Shown piece after piece: positions 2,201 through 35,723 of a stretch of 36,143 nucleotides of DNA. Origin of the DNA: Pirellulales bacterium (GTDB taxonomy: Bacteria > Planctomycetota > Planctomycetia > Pirellulales > Lacipirellulaceae); contig JAICUM010000004.1 in assembly GCA_025935855.1 (NCBI GenBank), positions 1 to 36,143 of the forward strand. The letters run 5' to 3'. A model generated the notes under the pieces. It was not told the DNA's origin and searched no databases. It worked only from the letters and a program-made list of their open reading frames with translations. The translations under genes and the position numbers were made by a program. Numbering within the stretch: the stretch's first letter is position 1; each line of letters begins with the position of its first letter.

Positions 2201-3646
2201 TTACGCGGGACTTTCCAATCGAATCTCGACACTACGAGCGTGGCCCGTCAGGCCTTCCTTGTTGGCCATCGCGAGCACATCGTCGGCGATTTCTTCCAGG
2301 CCCTGTTGCGTGAAGTGGATCACGCTATTGGAGCGCAGAAAATCGTTGGCCGACAGCCCGCTGGCATAGCGGGCCGTGGCGCCGGTCGGCAGCACGTGCG
2401 ACGGCCCCGCCGCATAATCGCCCAGCGGCACCGGGCTGTACGGCCCGATGAACATGGCGCCAGCATAGCGGATTTTGTCGGCGAGCCGCTCGGCGTTTGC
2501 CGAGGCGAGGTGCAAGTGCTCCGTAGCGAGCTCGTTGGCCAAGCGAACGGCTTCGTCCTCGTCGCGCACTCGAATCAATGCTCCAAACGATTCGAGCGAT
2601 TGCCGGGCGAGCTCGCCGCGATTCAGGGCCGCGAGCTGCTTGTCGAGGTCCGCCGCCACCGCGTCGATCAACTGGCCATCCCACGTGATGAGAATGGCTG
2701 ACCCTGGCGCGTGCTCCGCCTGGGCAATCAAGTCGGCTGCGGCGTAGCCGGCATGCGTCGTTTCATCTGCGATGACGATCACTTCGCTCGGACCAGCAAT
2801 CGAATCAATATCGACGTCGCCGAAGACATACTTCTTTGCCAGCGCGACGAACAAGTTGCCGGGACCAACGATCTTATCCACGCGCTCCAACAACAATCCC
2901 CCTCCCTCGAAGGGAGGGGCTAGGGGAGGGATTCGCAGGCTATCAACCACGGTGCTGCCGTTCAGACTCGCTTTGTCCTTAACGCCGTAGGCCAGCGCGG
3001 CAACAGCCTGAGCCCCGCCGATGCGATACACCTCTGTCACGCCGAGCTCATGGCACGTCGCCAGCAAATCCTGGTTGTACGAACCAAAAGGCGTCGGCGG
3101 CGCCACGATGGCAATCTGCTCGACGCCCGCCGCCTGTGCCGGCACGACGGTCATCAGCACCGTCGAAGGATACGCGGCCGCCCCGCCGGGCACGCATACG
3201 CCCACCCGCCGCAGCGGCCGATATCGCTGCGCCAGATAGCCGCCATGCTCCGTGTCGATCCAGACGTCCTTGTGCAGAATGGCCTGCTGAAACTTGAGAA
3301 TCCGCTCGCGAATTCGCTGAACGGTTCGCAAGAATTCAGGCGCCGCCGCGGCATGAGCGGCCGCTAGCTCCTCCGACGAAACCCGCAGCTCCCCGGCCGA
3401 AAGCTGCTTGCCGTCGAGCTTCGCCGTGTAATCCAGCAGCGCCGGCAGCCCGCGCGCTTTCACCTCCCGGCAAATCCGCTCCACCACTTGCACCGGCGAA
3501 AGCGGCTCGCCGAACACCTCCACCGTCTTCCGCCGTCCCGCTTCGCTGACAACATTCCCCTCAGGCGCGAGCTTCGCGCGCAGCGCCGCAATCTGCTCAG
3601 GGGCGCCGGGGTCGCTGGTGTCGATGCGGGAAATGTTCAGCGGCAT
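2201..3646 (-). CDS. hisD: Histidinol dehydrogenase, carrying an in-frame repeat-derived insertion
   Basis: 481 aa; GGAAAYPSTVLMTVVPAQAAGV, VDKIVGPGNLFVALAKKYVFGDVDIDSIAGPSEV and GPSHVLPTGATARYASGLS are HisD hallmarks. Confidence 0.95.
   Translation of the reverse strand: MPLNISRIDTSDPGAPEQIAALRAKLAPEGNVVSEAGRRKTVEVFGEPLSPVQVVERICREVKARGLPALLDYTAKLDGKQLSAGELRVSSEELAAAHAAAAPEFLRTVQRIRERILKFQQAILHKDVWIDTEHGGYLAQRYRPLRRVGVCVPGGAAAYPSTVLMTVVPAQAAGVEQIAIVAPPTPFGSYNQDLLATCHELGVTEVYRIGGAQAVAALAYGVKDKASLNGSTVVDSLRIPPLAPPFEGGGLLLERVDKIVGPGNLFVALAKKYVFGDVDIDSIAGPSEVIVIADETTHAGYAAADLIAQAEHAPGSAILITWDGQLIDAVAADLDKQLAALNRGELARQSLESFGALIRVRDEDEAVRLANELATEHLHLASANAERLADKIRYAGAMFIGPYSPVPLGDYAAGPSHVLPTGATARYASGLSANDFLRSNSVIHFTQQGLEEIADDVLAMANKEGLTGHARSVEIRLESPA
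2886..2940 (-). repeat. CCCTCCC-type palindromic repeat inserted in frame within hisD
   Basis: ccccctccctcgaagggaggggctaggggaggg encodes IPPLAPPFEGGG inside HisD; related copies at 7688-7777. Confidence 0.75.
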
Positions 3647-3666
3647 GTGCGGGAAAGGATGCTAGA

Positions 3667-3839
3667 TTCTCGATGCTCGATGCTGGATACTTGAAGCGTT
3701 CGCGATCCTAATCGTAATCGTACTCGTAATCCTAATCGTGCCGCTCATCGAACCGATTAGGATCACGAGTACGATGATGATTACTAGTTGAAGGCATTTC
3801 TGAGCGTTCGAGTATCGAGCATCCAGCATCCAGCATCAA
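3667..3839. repeat. Nested inverted repeats: GATGCTGGATAC-type outer arms enclosing TAATCGTACTCG-type inner arms
   Basis: Inner arms 3709-3738 and 3754-3783 are complementary at 27 of 30 positions. Outer arms GATGCTCGATGCTGGATACTTGAAGCG (about 3671-3700) and CGTTCGAGTATCGAGCATCCAGCATCCAGCATC (about 3804-3836). Confidence 0.8.
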
Positions 3840-3849
3840 GCCGCCGTTT

Positions 3850-4884
3850 ATGATCGACCTACGCAGCGACACCGTCACCAAACCCACCCCCGCCATGCGA
3901 GCCGCCATGCTCCAGGCCGAAGTCGGCGACGACGTGTACCGCGAAGATCCCACCGTGCGGCGGCTCGAAGAGCGAATCGCCGCGATGGTCGGCAAGGAAG
4001 CCGCGCTGTTCGTCCCCTCCGGCACCATGGGCAACCAGCTCGGCGTGTGGCTCCATTGCCGCCCGGGCGACGAGTTTCTGTGCGAAGCGGGCTGTCATAT
4101 CTTCAACTCAGAGCAGGCGGCCTACGCCCAACTCTTTAGCATTGCCGCGCGGCCGGTGGCCACGGCGGACCAGGTGCTCACGGTCCAGCACGTACAAGAC
4201 CTGGTTCGCGGCGAGGATGTTCACAACCCCCGCACAACTTTGCTTTGCCTCGAAAACACCCACAACCGCGGCGGCGGCAAGGTGCTCCCCTACGAAGGCC
4301 TCGCCGAGCTCTGCCGATGGGCCGCCGCTTGCGGCTTAGCGCGCCACCTCGACGGCGCCCGCCTCTTCAACGCGGTCGTCGCGTCCGGCATCTCCGCCGA
4401 CAAATGGGTCCAGCACTTTGACACCGTAAGCATCTGCTTCAGCAAAGGCCTCGGAGCGCCGATCGGTTCCGCCCTCTGCGGCCCCCGCGACGCCATCGAG
4501 CGCGCTCTGCGGATGCGCAAACCCCTCGGCGGCGGCTGGCGCCAAGCCGGCATCCTCGCCGACGCGGCGCTGTACGCACTGGACCACCACATCGACCGGC
4601 TGGCCGACGATCACGCCAATGCCAAGATACTGGCTGAAGCCGTGAAGCAAGCCGACGGCTTAGATCTCGACCCGCCGACGGTCGAAACAAACATCGTCAT
4701 TTTCCGCGTCGATCCGAAGCTCGGAACAGCCGCCCAGTTCTGCGACCGGCTGGAACAGCGCGGCGTGCTCATGTCGCCAAACGCCAAGCACAAAGTCCGC
4801 GCCGTGACGCATTTAGATGTCTCGGCCCAAGATGCGAAGCGAGCAGCTGAGTGCCTATTAGAAATCGGCTCAAAACCGTCTTGA
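3850..4884 (+). CDS. ltaE: Low-specificity L-threonine aldolase family (PLP-dependent)
   Basis: 344 aa; MIDLRSDTVTKPTPAMRAAM, VGDDVYREDPTVRRLE, FVPSGTMGNQ, HLDGARLFNA and SICFSKGLGAPIGS. Confidence 0.93.
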   Translation: MIDLRSDTVTKPTPAMRAAMLQAEVGDDVYREDPTVRRLEERIAAMVGKEAALFVPSGTMGNQLGVWLHCRPGDEFLCEAGCHIFNSEQAAYAQLFSIAARPVATADQVLTVQHVQDLVRGEDVHNPRTTLLCLENTHNRGGGKVLPYEGLAELCRWAAACGLARHLDGARLFNAVVASGISADKWVQHFDTVSICFSKGLGAPIGSALCGPRDAIERALRMRKPLGGGWRQAGILADAALYALDHHIDRLADDHANAKILAEAVKQADGLDLDPPTVETNIVIFRVDPKLGTAAQFCDRLEQRGVLMSPNAKHKVRAVTHLDVSAQDAKRAAECLLEIGSKPS

Positions 4885-14744: not shown

Positions 14745-15761
14745 TTACCCCAGTTCCCGGTCCATCGCCTCGGCGATTCGCCCGCACTGCCGCATCATTT
14801 CCTGGAACTGCGGCAGATTGAGCGATTGGTAGCCGTCGCTCATCGCTTTATCAGGATTGGGATGCACCTCGACGATGACCCCATCCGCCCCCGCCGCGAT
14901 GGCCGCGCGGGCCATCGCCGTCACCAGATTCGTGTGCCCCGTACCGTGGCTGGGGTCGATCACAATCGGCAAGTGCGTCTTCTGCTGCACGTACGGCACC
15001 GAGGCCAGCGGCAGGGTGAAACGCGTATGCGCTTCGAAGGTGCGGATGCCGCGCTCGCAGAGCATGACGTTCGGGTTCCCCGCGTCGAGAATGTACTCTG
15101 CCGCCAATAGCCATTCATCCACCGTGGCGCTGGGTCCGCGTTTGAGCAACACGGGTCGCGTGGACTTTCCGGCACATTCAAGTAGCCGGTAGTTCTGCAT
15201 GTTGCGAGCGCCGATCTGCAGTACGTCGGCGTACTCGGAAACGAGTTCAACGTCGTCGGGCGCCACCACCTCCGTGACAATCGCCAGCCCCGTCTGCTCC
15301 CGCGCTTCGGCGAGCAGCTTGAGCCCTTCTTCTTTCAGCCCCTGGAAGCTGTAAGGACTGGTTCGCGGCTTGAACGCTCCGCCGCGCAGCGCCGTGGCGC
15401 CGGCCGCCTTGACGCCGCGGGCCGTCGCACAAATCTGCTCCTCGTTTTCCACTGAGCACGGCCCGGCGATGACGCCGATGTTCGCGCCGCCCACGGTCAG
15501 GCTGCCCGCCTTCACGACTGTCGGCTCGGCGCGCAGCTCGCGGCTGGCCAGCTTGTACGGCGCGAGGATCGGCAGCACCTCGTCCACTCCTGGGCCGCTT
15601 TCCAGCGAGCCAGCGCCGGCGAAGCGCTCTTCGCCAATCGCGGCGATGACCGTCCGCTCCGTGCCGCGCAGGACGACGGGCTTCATCTTCAGGGCCTCAA
15701 CGTGTTCAATCATGGCTTGAATGTCCTCTTCGCTCGCCGAGCGCTTCATGACGACGATCAT
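14745..15761 (-). CDS. aroF: 3-deoxy-7-phosphoheptulonate (DAHP) synthase, AroF/AroA-beta family
   Basis: [30 protein letters not shown] (N-terminal domain), [81 protein letters not shown]. Confidence 0.95.
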
Positions 15762-15802: not shown

Positions 15803-15873
15803 GGTGAGTAAGTGAGTAGGTGAGTAGGTCTTGAATGCCGAAGGGATCTACTTACTCACCTACTCACTTACTC
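15803..15873. repeat. Word-repeat palindrome (GAGTAAGTGAGTAGGT) in the aroF 5' region
   Basis: GTGAGTAAGTGAGTAGGTGAGTAGGTC ... GATCTACTTACTCACCTACTCACTTACTCC; about 21 nt (GAGTAAGTGAGTAGGTGAGTA) perfectly inverted. Confidence 0.85.
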
Positions 15874-15892
15874 CACCTACTCATCCGAAAAC

Positions 15893-15932
15893 AAAAAAAG
15901 CCCCGGGTCGCATCTCGGCGCCCCGGGGCTTT
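15893..15932 (-). terminator. Intrinsic terminator upstream of aroF (candidate attenuator; may also end S9 peptidase transcripts)
   Basis: Minus strand: AAAGCCCCGGG-(GCGCCGAGATGCGA)-CCCGGGGCTTTTTTT; 11-bp perfect stem, 14-nt loop, T7 tract. Confidence 0.88.
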
Positions 15933-15964
15933 CGCGGTTCGTGCTAAGGGATGACTCTTACGCA

Positions 15965-16030
15965 CTACCTCCGGGCGCGGCGGACGCCGCCGGTAAAGCT
16001 AAACCAAAAGTAGCGCCAATAAGTGTTCAT
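15965..16030 (-). CDS. Candidate aromatic-rich leader peptide MNTYWRYFWFSFTGGVRRARR
   Basis: Minus strand ATG AAC ACT TAT TGG CGC TAC TTT TGG TTT AGC TTT ACC GGC GGC GTC CGC CGC GCC CGG AGG TAG; 7 aromatic codons in codons 4-12; lies 33 nt before the terminator that precedes aroF. No strong SD. Confidence 0.6.
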   Translation of the reverse strand: MNTYWRYFWFSFTGGVRRARR

Positions 16031-16111
16031 CACGGTGTTATTGTCGGCACGATCGGCGAACAACGCAAGTGAATTTGCCCCGCTTTTTTCATGAAGCCGC
16101 AAGCAATCCGA

Positions 16112-23950: not shown

Positions 23951-23991
23951 GTCGCGATTTGTAGTGTTGGGTTGAGATGTCAAAGAGCTGG

Positions 23992-24021
23992 CGGCGCTAT
24001 TGGCAGCGCCGTTGGTTTTTT
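23992..24021 (+). terminator. Candidate intrinsic terminator
   Basis: CGGCGCT(attggc)AGCGCCG followed by ttggtttttt. Confidence 0.55.
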
Positions 24022-24551
24022 GTCGCGTGAATTCTGTCGCGAAGCGTGTTTTTGGCGACAGAAATCGGTTCTGCGATTTGCGCGCAGCGTCGGCGTGCGG
24101 CCGGCCGCTGGTTAGGCCGGCTGTTGAATACGATACGCATGTACATTAACACACGGGGCGGTCAATTTCAAGGCGAGTTTTTGGGCCAGCGCCGTCTGCT
24201 CGCGCAATCTGGCGGCCTGACAGGGCAAAAAGTGCGACCGGCGGTGCAGCAGCGTGGGTCGCCGGAAGGAGGTTTGCACTCGCGCCGGCGAGGGCGTCCG
24301 TCTCAACCTTCGGCCGCTGAGATTGGGTTGGCCGGAAAGCGGCGTGCTTAAAGGACTTGCGGCTCGCCTCGGTCGCGAGGGGGGCGGCTCCGATGGCCGT
24401 TTGCCGGCCTTCCAAGATGCGGTTTTTGCCGCCGTTTTCTTGATTCCCGCGTTTTCTGATACCAAAATCTTAGCTGTCGCGCCTCTTATAGAGGCAGCAC
24501 AGTGCGGGCCGGCTGGTCATTGGCATCAGTCGTTCTCCGGAAGCTCGTCTC

Positions 24552-33671: not shown

Positions 33672-35189
33672 ATGATCTGCGTTGCCATTGGCCGTAGCCG
33701 CCACAAGCATATGATGGCGGAGCACCAGCACCTTGCCGAGCAAGGCGCGAAGATGGTCGAGCTGCGCCTCGACTACGTGGCCGGCCGGGTGAACATCCGC
33801 CGGCTGATGGCCGAGCGGCCCGAAGGTTGCCAGGTGATCATCACGGCGCGCCGCAAGGAGGACGGCGGCAAATGGCAGGGGACCGAGGAAGCTCGCCAGC
33901 TGCTCTTGCGCGAGGCGATCGCTGAAGGCGTTGATTGGGTGGATCTGGAAGAGGACGTCGCGGGGCAGATTCGCCGTTTCGGCCGCACTAAGCGGATTGT
34001 GAGCTACCACAACTTCCGCAAGACGCCCGACGACCTGCGCGAGCTGCACGAGCGGATGGCGGGGCTCGATCCGGACGTCATCAAGATTGCCACGATGGCC
34101 AACACGCCGCATGACAACGTGCGGGTGTTGGAGATGATGCAGGAAAGCGAGATCCCGACCGTCGGCATGTGCATGGGCGACATCGGCACGCCGTCGCGCA
34201 TTCTGGCGGGCAAATTCGGGGCGCCATTCACTTACGCCACGTTCCATCACGAGCGGACGCTCGCTCCCGGTCAACTCAGCTTCCGGCAGATGACGGAGAT
34301 CTACAACTACGAGCGGATTGGGCACAACACGATGGTGTACGGCGTGATCGCTGACCCGATCGGCCACAGCCTCAGCCCGCACGTCCACAACGCGGCGTTC
34401 GAGGCGCGGGGCATCGACGCGGTGTACGTGCCGTTCCGCGTACCGGCGGATTCGCTGGGGCAGTTCATGGAAGACGCGCCGCGGCTAGGGATCAAAGGGC
34501 TGAGCGTCACGATTCCCCACAAGGAAGCCATCGGCCGGCATCTGACGAAGGTCGATCCTGCGGTGAAGAGCATCGCGGCGGTGAACACCGTGGTGTTCGA
34601 CGCCGCCGAGCGCATCGGCTACAACACCGACTACAACGCGGCGATGGATTGCCTGGAGCATGCGCTGGGGCAAATTGGCGCCGAGCCGAGCCCTCTGAAG
34701 GGGAAGCGCGTGCTGGTGCTGGGCGCCGGCGGCGTGGCCCGGCCGATTGTGTTCGGACTGCGGAAGCGCGGGGCGCTGACGAGCATTGCCTCGCGGACCT
34801 TGGCCCGCGCCGAGCGGCTGGCGAGCGCCTTTGACGCGAAAGCCATCGAATGGGAAGCTCGCCATCGCAATCCGGTGGACATTCTCATCAACTGTACGCC
34901 GGTCGGCATGCACCCGAACGTCGATGAATCGCCGATCCACAAGACATTCCTGAAACCGGCGATGATGGTTTTCGACACAGTGTATAACCCCGAGTCAACG
35001 CTGCTGGTGAAAGACGCCCGGGCGCGGAACTGCGGCGTGATCACCGGCGTCGAGATGTTCGTCCGGCAGGCGATGCTGCAGTTCTTTCTATTCACCCGCA
35101 AGGAGGCCCCGGCGGAGCTGATGCGCGACGTGTTGAAACGGGCGATTGGCCCGGTGAAGTTCGCCCCACCGCCGACCTCGGACGACTGA
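33672..35189 (+). CDS. aroDE: Bifunctional type I 3-dehydroquinate dehydratase / shikimate dehydrogenase
   Basis: N-term MVELRLDYV, RIVSYHNFRKTP, DVIKIATMAN; C-term VIADPIGHSLSPHVHNAAF, SVTIPHKEAI, VNTVV, GYNTDYNA, VLGAGGVARPIVFGL. Confidence 0.94.
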   Translation: MICVAIGRSRHKHMMAEHQHLAEQGAKMVELRLDYVAGRVNIRRLMAERPEGCQVIITARRKEDGGKWQGTEEARQLLLREAIAEGVDWVDLEEDVAGQIRRFGRTKRIVSYHNFRKTPDDLRELHERMAGLDPDVIKIATMANTPHDNVRVLEMMQESEIPTVGMCMGDIGTPSRILAGKFGAPFTYATFHHERTLAPGQLSFRQMTEIYNYERIGHNTMVYGVIADPIGHSLSPHVHNAAFEARGIDAVYVPFRVPADSLGQFMEDAPRLGIKGLSVTIPHKEAIGRHLTKVDPAVKSIAAVNTVVFDAAERIGYNTDYNAAMDCLEHALGQIGAEPSPLKGKRVLVLGAGGVARPIVFGLRKRGALTSIASRTLARAERLASAFDAKAIEWEARHRNPVDILINCTPVGMHPNVDESPIHKTFLKPAMMVFDTVYNPESTLLVKDARARNCGVITGVEMFVRQAMLQFFLFTRKEAPAELMRDVLKRAIGPVKFAPPPTSDD

Positions 35190-35192
35190 TCG

Positions 35193-35723
35193 ATGGAAGT
35201 TGAGTCGATCGCCCTCATTGGATACCGCGGGACCGGCAAGACGACGATCGCCCAGCGGCTGGCCGGCGCGCTTGGCTGGGATTGGGTGGACGCCGACGTT
35301 GAGGTGGAGTTGCGAGCGGGGAAGAGCATTGCGGCGATTTTTGCCGATGATGGCGAGTTGGCGTTTCGCGATCTGGAAGCAGCCGTTGTGGCGGAGCTGT
35401 GCGGCCGAACGCGGACGGTGATTGCGCTGGGCGGGGGGGCGATCTTGCGCGAGGAAAACCGCCGGGCGATTGGCGGTTGCGGGGCCGTCGTTTGGTTGCG
35501 GGCATCGGTGGATGCCATCGAACAGCGCATGGCGGCGGACCCGGCGACCGCGGCCAGGCGGCCGAATCTTACGGCGGCCGGGGGCCGGACGGAAATTGAG
35601 CGAGTGTTGGCCCAACGGACGCCACATTACCGGGCGTGTGCTACGCTTGTGGTTGATACCGACGCTAAGGATCCTGCCGAAATCAGCGGCGAGATCCTTG
35701 CGGCGCTGAATGATCACGCGTAA
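35193..35723 (+). CDS. aroK: Shikimate kinase
   Basis: IALIGYRGTGKTTIAQRLAGALGWDWVDADVEVELRAGKSIAAIFADDGELAFRDLE, LGGGAILREENR, RPNLT; begins 3 nt after aroDE stop. Confidence 0.93.
   Translation: MEVESIALIGYRGTGKTTIAQRLAGALGWDWVDADVEVELRAGKSIAAIFADDGELAFRDLEAAVVAELCGRTRTVIALGGGAILREENRRAIGGCGAVVWLRASVDAIEQRMAADPATAARRPNLTAAGGRTEIERVLAQRTPHYRACATLVVDTDAKDPAEISGEILAALNDHA

Follow-up and report, generated by a model that had tools for sequence, protein, structure and literature searches.

Does the short ORF rich in aromatic codons that precedes aroF in this Pirellulales genome control the gene by transcription attenuation and, if so, how is the leader transcribed and translated, and how far does the arrangement extend beyond one genome? 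All positions given here refer to the window, that is, the whole stretch of DNA analysed (36,143 nt; contig C182 of an assembly that is 82% complete and consists of 827 contigs).

Organisation of the aroF leader

The leader ORF begins with an ATG at 16030 and its TAG ends at 15965 on the minus strand, as read directly from the sequence, and its aromatic cluster is YWRYFWF (Table 1). The named relatives of the aroF product are from Pirellulales and other Planctomycetota. An initial annotation of this DNA had described a 21-codon aromatic ORF, a terminator and a distance of 132 nt from the end of the terminator (15893) to the aroF ATG (15761), all of which were exactly reproduced from the sequence. 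The sequence also contains the small hairpin of that annotation (GTGCgTAAG..CTTAGCAC, 15941-15965), of which the alignment retains only the GTGC/GCAC ends, and these only in the nearest relatives. A generic promoter and terminator scan of the window gave no match, its rules admitting neither the GACAAT box nor the loop geometry of this terminator. Among the features by which an attenuator is recognised, the locus combines a short leader ORF enriched in codons for the end products of the pathway, an intrinsic terminator between that ORF and the structural gene and, as computed, an alternative antiterminator that uses the 5' arm of the terminator.

Table 1. Features of the aroF leader region, in window coordinates.
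Feature	Position	Strand	Description
-35 element TTGCGT	16063..16068	-	Conserved as cTTGCnn; promoter pattern in 46/52 aligned loci
-10 element GACAAT	16040..16045	-	17-nt spacer; ends 9 nt ahead of the leader ATG
Leader ORF MNTYWRYFWFSFTGGVRRARR	15965..16030	-	21 codons; Tyr/Trp/Phe codons clustered at codons 4-12; conserved in relatives
Segment 1	16004..16012	-	Codons 7-9, TAC TTT TGG; potential partner of segment 2 in the protector hairpin
Segment 2, antiterminator arm	15966..15985	-	Last leader codons, consensus GGGTCGCGGGGCCGGAGGTnG
Segment 3, terminator 5' arm AAGCCCCGGGGCGC	15918..15931	-	Alternative partner of segments 2 and 4
Segment 4, terminator 3' arm	15898..15911	-	Pairs with segment 3
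Intrinsic terminator hairpin with T7 tail, GAAAGCCCCGGGGCGCCGAGATGCGACCCGGGGCTTTTTTT	15893..15932	-	Sequence, fold and placement in relatives
aroF, the controlled gene (type I-beta DAHP synthase)	14745..15761	-	NCBIfam NF006421 and TIGR01361, above curated cut-offs

Between the terminator and aroF (15803-15876) there is also a long palindrome with the 8-bp repeats GAGTAGGT/GAGTAAGT (about -43 kcal/mol for the segment). A similar palindrome occurs in L007 and none in most relatives, and the element is probably a mobile or REP-like repeat.

Selection on the aromatic codons

In the leader, the maximum is 7 aromatic residues in 10 codons. Among the 263 ATG-initiated small ORFs of the window that encode 12-40 aa, the leader alone has a stretch of 10 codons with at least 6 aromatic residues, and 361 kb of flanking DNA contained only two small ORFs with at least 6 per 10 codons, one of which (L097) also looks like a genuine aromatic leader. 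Of 7,550 shuffled upstream regions, five reached 6 aromatic residues per 10 codons and none reached 7. Elsewhere in the window, the small ORF MSKSWRRYWQRRWFFVA (23977-24030, plus strand), with five aromatic residues and no terminator-linked context, was set aside as a probable chance occurrence.

Upstream of aroF, we identified 86 non-redundant loci with an aromatic-rich small ORF, of which two (L124 and the paralog L143) are probably false. At seven aligned codon positions, 1,297 of the 1,573 single-base differences from an aromatic codon left the codon aromatic (82%; pairwise counts, uncorrected for shared ancestry), compared to 8/45 (18%) expected for random changes from an aromatic codon. 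Within the aligned leaders, TTT and TTC, as well as TAT and TAC, are freely exchanged and Phe, Tyr and Trp substitute for each other, while all 52 have an aromatic codon at alignment position 31-33. All three aromatic amino acids are present in 75 of 83 leaders, with a mean of approximately 7 aromatic codons per leader, Trp included. The conservation of aromatic codons with synonymous drift, for which the initial annotation had suggested looking, is therefore seen in close and distant relatives alike.

A strong terminator was found in 84 of the 86 loci, typically about 50-85 nt past the leader stop; terminators had no part in the selection of these loci, so that their conservation in relatives, previously only a proposed check, is an outcome of the comparison. 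These observations bear on the possibility that the terminator only ends the transcript of an S9 peptidase gene, with aroF expressed from its own promoter further downstream and the aromatic ORF arising by chance. In the window, as in some relatives, the leader is indeed preceded by an S9 peptidase gene in the same orientation, but this gene holds the position in only 14 of 65 loci, whereas the leader, the terminator and aroF stay together. Moreover, promoter-like sites between the terminator and aroF are no more common than in shuffled sequences (3/63 vs. about 10%), and the aromatic ORF is much better conserved than chance would allow. We regard this explanation, which the initial annotation had raised against its own reading, as exceedingly improbable.

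Covariation and competing structures in the leader RNA

The region folds with a z-score of -3.3 in the window, where the energies of the 1:2 region (approximately -23.9 kcal/mol), the best 2:3 duplex (-26.1 kcal/mol) and the 3:4 hairpin (-24.9 kcal/mol) are alike, so that three structures of similar strength compete. The antiterminator pairing originally proposed between CGCGCCCGG and CCGGGGCGC was confirmed and is longer than first described, the -26.1 kcal/mol duplex being the best one between the ORF tail and the terminator arm.

Across the aligned loci, 90.5% of the cells in the terminator stem (3:4) are paired, and 9 of its 14 pairs have changes on both sides (uncorrected for shared ancestry). 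The number of cells with changes on both sides is 67, compared to 17.6 in shuffles (0 of 500 shuffles). For the antiterminator (2:3), 73.4% of the cells are paired and the covariation score exceeds those of all 500 shuffles, likewise uncorrected for shared ancestry; covariation, another check put forward with the original description, is thus found in both structures. Comparison of the duplexes that segment 2 forms with segment 3 shows a mean of -22.4 kcal/mol for the partner from the same leader vs. -19.0 kcal/mol for the arms of other species (0 of 2,000 permutations), and the last ten leader codons pair with the terminator arm at -23.6 kcal/mol, compared to -17.3 kcal/mol after synonymous randomisation of the same tail. 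Because each tail pairs better with its own arm and the real tail outperforms its synonymous recodings, the conservation of Gly, Ala and Arg at the end of the peptide is best read as an imprint of the antiterminator. In the protector (1:2), 81.8% of the cells are paired and covariation exceeds that in all but 2 of 500 shuffles, a result partly confounded by the codon constraint that also acts on segment 1. Formation of the protector can give the classical four-segment layout of 1:2, 2:3 and 3:4 pairings, in which the aromatic codons themselves would act as the protector, a point absent from the initial annotation.

We computed the folding of a set of leaders with the ribosome at different positions. 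With the ribosome stalled and segment 4 not yet made, the mean probability of the antiterminator is 0.92, the lowest value of the set (0.49) being that of the window sequence, and with the ribosome at the stop codon the probability of the terminator is 1.00. At equilibrium, the terminator is favoured in most full-length sequences even with the ribosome stalled (mean probability 0.83). Equilibrium folding alone does not reveal a switch, for which reason the state preceding segment 4 was used in the computation, and antitermination would have to act kinetically, during transcription.

The same results weigh on two other accounts of the small ORF. It might act through Rho-dependent termination or translational coupling, or encode a functional small protein, with the hairpin being secondary, and such leader systems are known in other bacteria. 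Here, however, almost every locus has an intrinsic terminator, with strong covariation, the leader stop is separated from aroF by roughly 85-290 nt in most loci, and the peptide conserves only aromatic identity and RNA pairing, its C-terminal Gly, Arg and Ala codons following the antiterminator, all of which makes this account highly improbable. To a T-box or a metabolite riboswitch as the sensor in the same leader we assign next to no probability. Although such elements control amino-acid genes in other phyla, the terminator is preceded by no more than about 140 nt of transcript, half of which is the ORF, and no Rfam covariance model reached the gathering threshold in the window or, apart from an unrelated tRNA, in 12 relative loci.

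A promoter positioned at the leader start codon

Directly at the leader there is a conserved promoter, a feature missed in the initial annotation. The pattern TTG-16..18 nt-nAnnnT, placed 3-13 nt ahead of the leader ATG, is present in 46 of the 52 aligned loci, compared to 2.8% of shuffles, and the distance from the end of the -10 box to the ATG is 6-7 nt in 37 of these 52 loci and 9-10 nt in 9. Words resembling a Shine-Dalgarno (SD) sequence are found ahead of the leader in 4 of 52 loci, vs. 39 of 52 for aroF. Given this conserved distance of 6-10 nt and the lack of a Shine-Dalgarno sequence, the leader is probably translated from leaderless or nearly leaderless RNA, the predicted start of which should be the ATG itself or up to about 4 nt earlier. 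Leaderless attenuator transcripts were reportedly also found in C. glutamicum by Neshat and colleagues in 2014.

A working leader could instead be SD-led or initiated upstream, at TTG (16063) or GTG (16033), both of which are in frame with the leader ATG, and in some of the more distant relatives the leader is longer, with no promoter immediately before the ATG. This is unlikely in view of the distance between the -10 box and the ATG in these 46 loci, the rarity of SD-like words ahead of the leader and the overlap of the TTG at 16063 with the -35 box.

Distribution across genomes

A covariance model of the leader, built from 52 loci, matched the DNA just ahead of aroF in 51 of 60 genomes, the source genome included, which corresponds to 51 of the 55 genomes that have an ortholog with its upstream DNA. 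Of the nine unmatched genomes, five have no ortholog or lack its upstream DNA, and the other four, related genomes with an aroF ortholog, have no detectable leader. Matches outside the training set were obtained in G035 (2e-21), G036 (1.7e-18), G025 (3.4e-18) and G049 (1.9e-15). Wider sampling of the phylum identified aromatic leaders with terminators in families f21, f49, f58, f67 and f73, and single loci were found outside the phylum, namely, in Chloroflexota (L102, L109 and probably L097), Calditrichota (L101) and an Acidobacteria MAG (L105). The distribution is patchy, with many distant families having no leader.

The aromatic leaders of the Chloroflexota loci L097 (91-162), L102 and L109 (MKGYWSFFYAYFYGAPKAAVASR, MPNLANTFYGYFYYFTELHTARSLRTVS and MLTKPVYFYFYFFSSSTRRNCCEAVVSR) are located about 575-1340 nt upstream of aroF and probably precede an operon. 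In family f58 (L299, L306, L307, L309 and L311), the leaders are of the type ..YWVIYYFRYYYKRGG. and the terminators are weaker.

Leaders matched to other pathways

We further compared the residues of the leaders to the pathways of the genes that follow them. An aromatic leader was found ahead of 28 of 30 aroF genes, 0 of 14 second DAHP synthase copies and 0 of 18 trpE genes (L183-L196 among these loci), and a targeted search for Trp leaders upstream of trpE likewise identified none. Leu-rich leaders with a terminator precede 17 of 21 genes for 2-isopropylmalate synthase (leuA; L198-L217), and Ile/Val-rich leaders precede 9 of 18 genes for citramalate synthase (cimA; L228-L244); no other tested residue group was found at either gene. 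Weak secondary matches of the covariance model also fall before leuA, at runs of Leu codons, and before the citramalate synthase gene, at Ile/Val-rich leaders. This agreement between leader residue and pathway, an internal control, is the strongest argument that the leaders are amino-acid attenuators; the residue-matched leaders of leuA and cimA in this lineage had not been noticed in the initial annotation. Neither leuA nor cimA was found in the source genome, the assembly of which is incomplete, so that the wider regulon can be checked in relatives only. It appears fairly likely that Planctomycetota possess an old and widespread attenuation regulon, in which DAHP synthase, 2-isopropylmalate synthase and citramalate synthase, as the first committed enzymes of their pathways, each have a residue-matched leader and a terminator, the aro member being leaderless and integrating Phe, Tyr and Trp in one switch.

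Several further observations concern amino-acid genes of the source genome. Its second DAHP synthase (G000:C593:2693-3700), which is 52% identical and encoded on another contig, has no leader. The window also contains genes for a fused 3-dehydroquinate dehydratase/shikimate dehydrogenase and for shikimate kinase (33672-35723, plus strand), with no aromatic leader upstream. Upstream of hisD (3640-3850) lies a long imperfect inverted repeat of GATGCTCGA- and TAGGATTACGA-like units, where no His-rich leader ORF was found.

Discussion

Taken together, the conservation of the ORF, the covariation of the terminator, the 2:3 complementarity beyond that of the controls and the position of the promoter, along with residue-matched specificity, lend good support to the multi-aromatic attenuator originally suggested: the leader is very probably a ribosome-mediated transcription attenuator that controls aroF through the supply of charged tRNA-Phe, tRNA-Tyr and tRNA-Trp. 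From the sequence, we infer that the leader is expressed from a leaderless start and translated, that ribosomes stall on it, and in which direction and how strongly aroF responds. RNA polymerase would start at, or a few nucleotides from, the leader ATG, and the ribosome would initiate on (nearly) leaderless RNA. When any aromatic tRNA is short, the ribosome would stall on the YWRYFWF cluster and cover segment 1, leaving segment 2 free to pair with the emerging segment 3, with read-through into aroF. When all three are plentiful, the ribosome would reach the stop codon and cover segment 2, so that the 3:4 terminator would form and transcription would end near 15893. Without translation of the leader, 1:2 could form, and termination would be expected as well. 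The cell can thus probably raise aroF production when aromatic amino acids run short.

A leader reading three amino acids at the common first enzyme would suit a branched pathway, in which shortage of any end product should raise the entry flux. The conservation of such an attenuator across Planctomycetota, alongside its Leu and Ile counterparts carried by these genomes, would indicate that this phylum, the cell organisation of which has long been debated, makes regulatory use of coupled transcription and translation, and these loci can be tested in culturable strains. A leaderless leader would also provide a defined case of start-codon-first initiation in the phylum.

Comparison with known systems

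Attenuators of DAHP synthase genes are already known elsewhere, in C. glutamicum (aroR) and, as a prediction, in Acholeplasma (uORFC-13-1). As of 2010, leader-peptide systems had been known only from Proteobacteria and Actinobacteria before Firmicutes were added (PMC2965389). The literature searched, which largely excludes subscription journals, yielded no amino-acid attenuator of this kind in Planctomycetota, and such control of aroF seems not to have been described in this phylum.

In C. glutamicum, a leader peptide with Phe-Tyr-Phe precedes the DAHP synthase gene, attenuation has been proposed, and aroF transcription increases under Phe limitation, whereas Tyr supply is reported to be without effect (PMC4046766; PMC11802643, citing Neshat et al. 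2014). The likeness to the planctomycete leader is one of function, an aromatic-codon leader peptide before a DAHP synthase gene; C. glutamicum belongs to another phylum and has Phe-Tyr-Phe only, compared to about 7 aromatic codons, Trp included, and long conserved RNA segments in the planctomycete leaders. The uORFC-13-1 motif similarly places a predicted uORF, an intrinsic terminator and promoter elements upstream of aroF, but differs in its ribosome-binding site, its uORF with at least one Phe codon and its range of 24 representatives, only from Acholeplasma and environmental sequences (PMC8632094). The leader RNA of Sinorhizobium meliloti trpL-trpE(G) likewise has the leader ATG at its 5' end and is leaderless (PMC7298713), but this alphaproteobacterial system reads Trp only and controls trpE(G).

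The pheA and trp attenuators of E. coli share with the planctomycete leader an ORF rich in end-product codons, the 1:2, 2:3 and 3:4 segments and an intrinsic terminator. They are, however, SD-led and respond to a single amino acid, whereas the planctomycete leader would read three and targets the first enzyme of the common pathway. In the E. coli systems, segment 2 lies downstream of the leader ORF; in the planctomycete leader, it is the 3' end of the ORF. The unusual traits of this probable attenuator are that three amino acids would be read at once, that the antiterminator arm lies inside the ORF, that the start is probably leaderless and that its range is phylum-wide.
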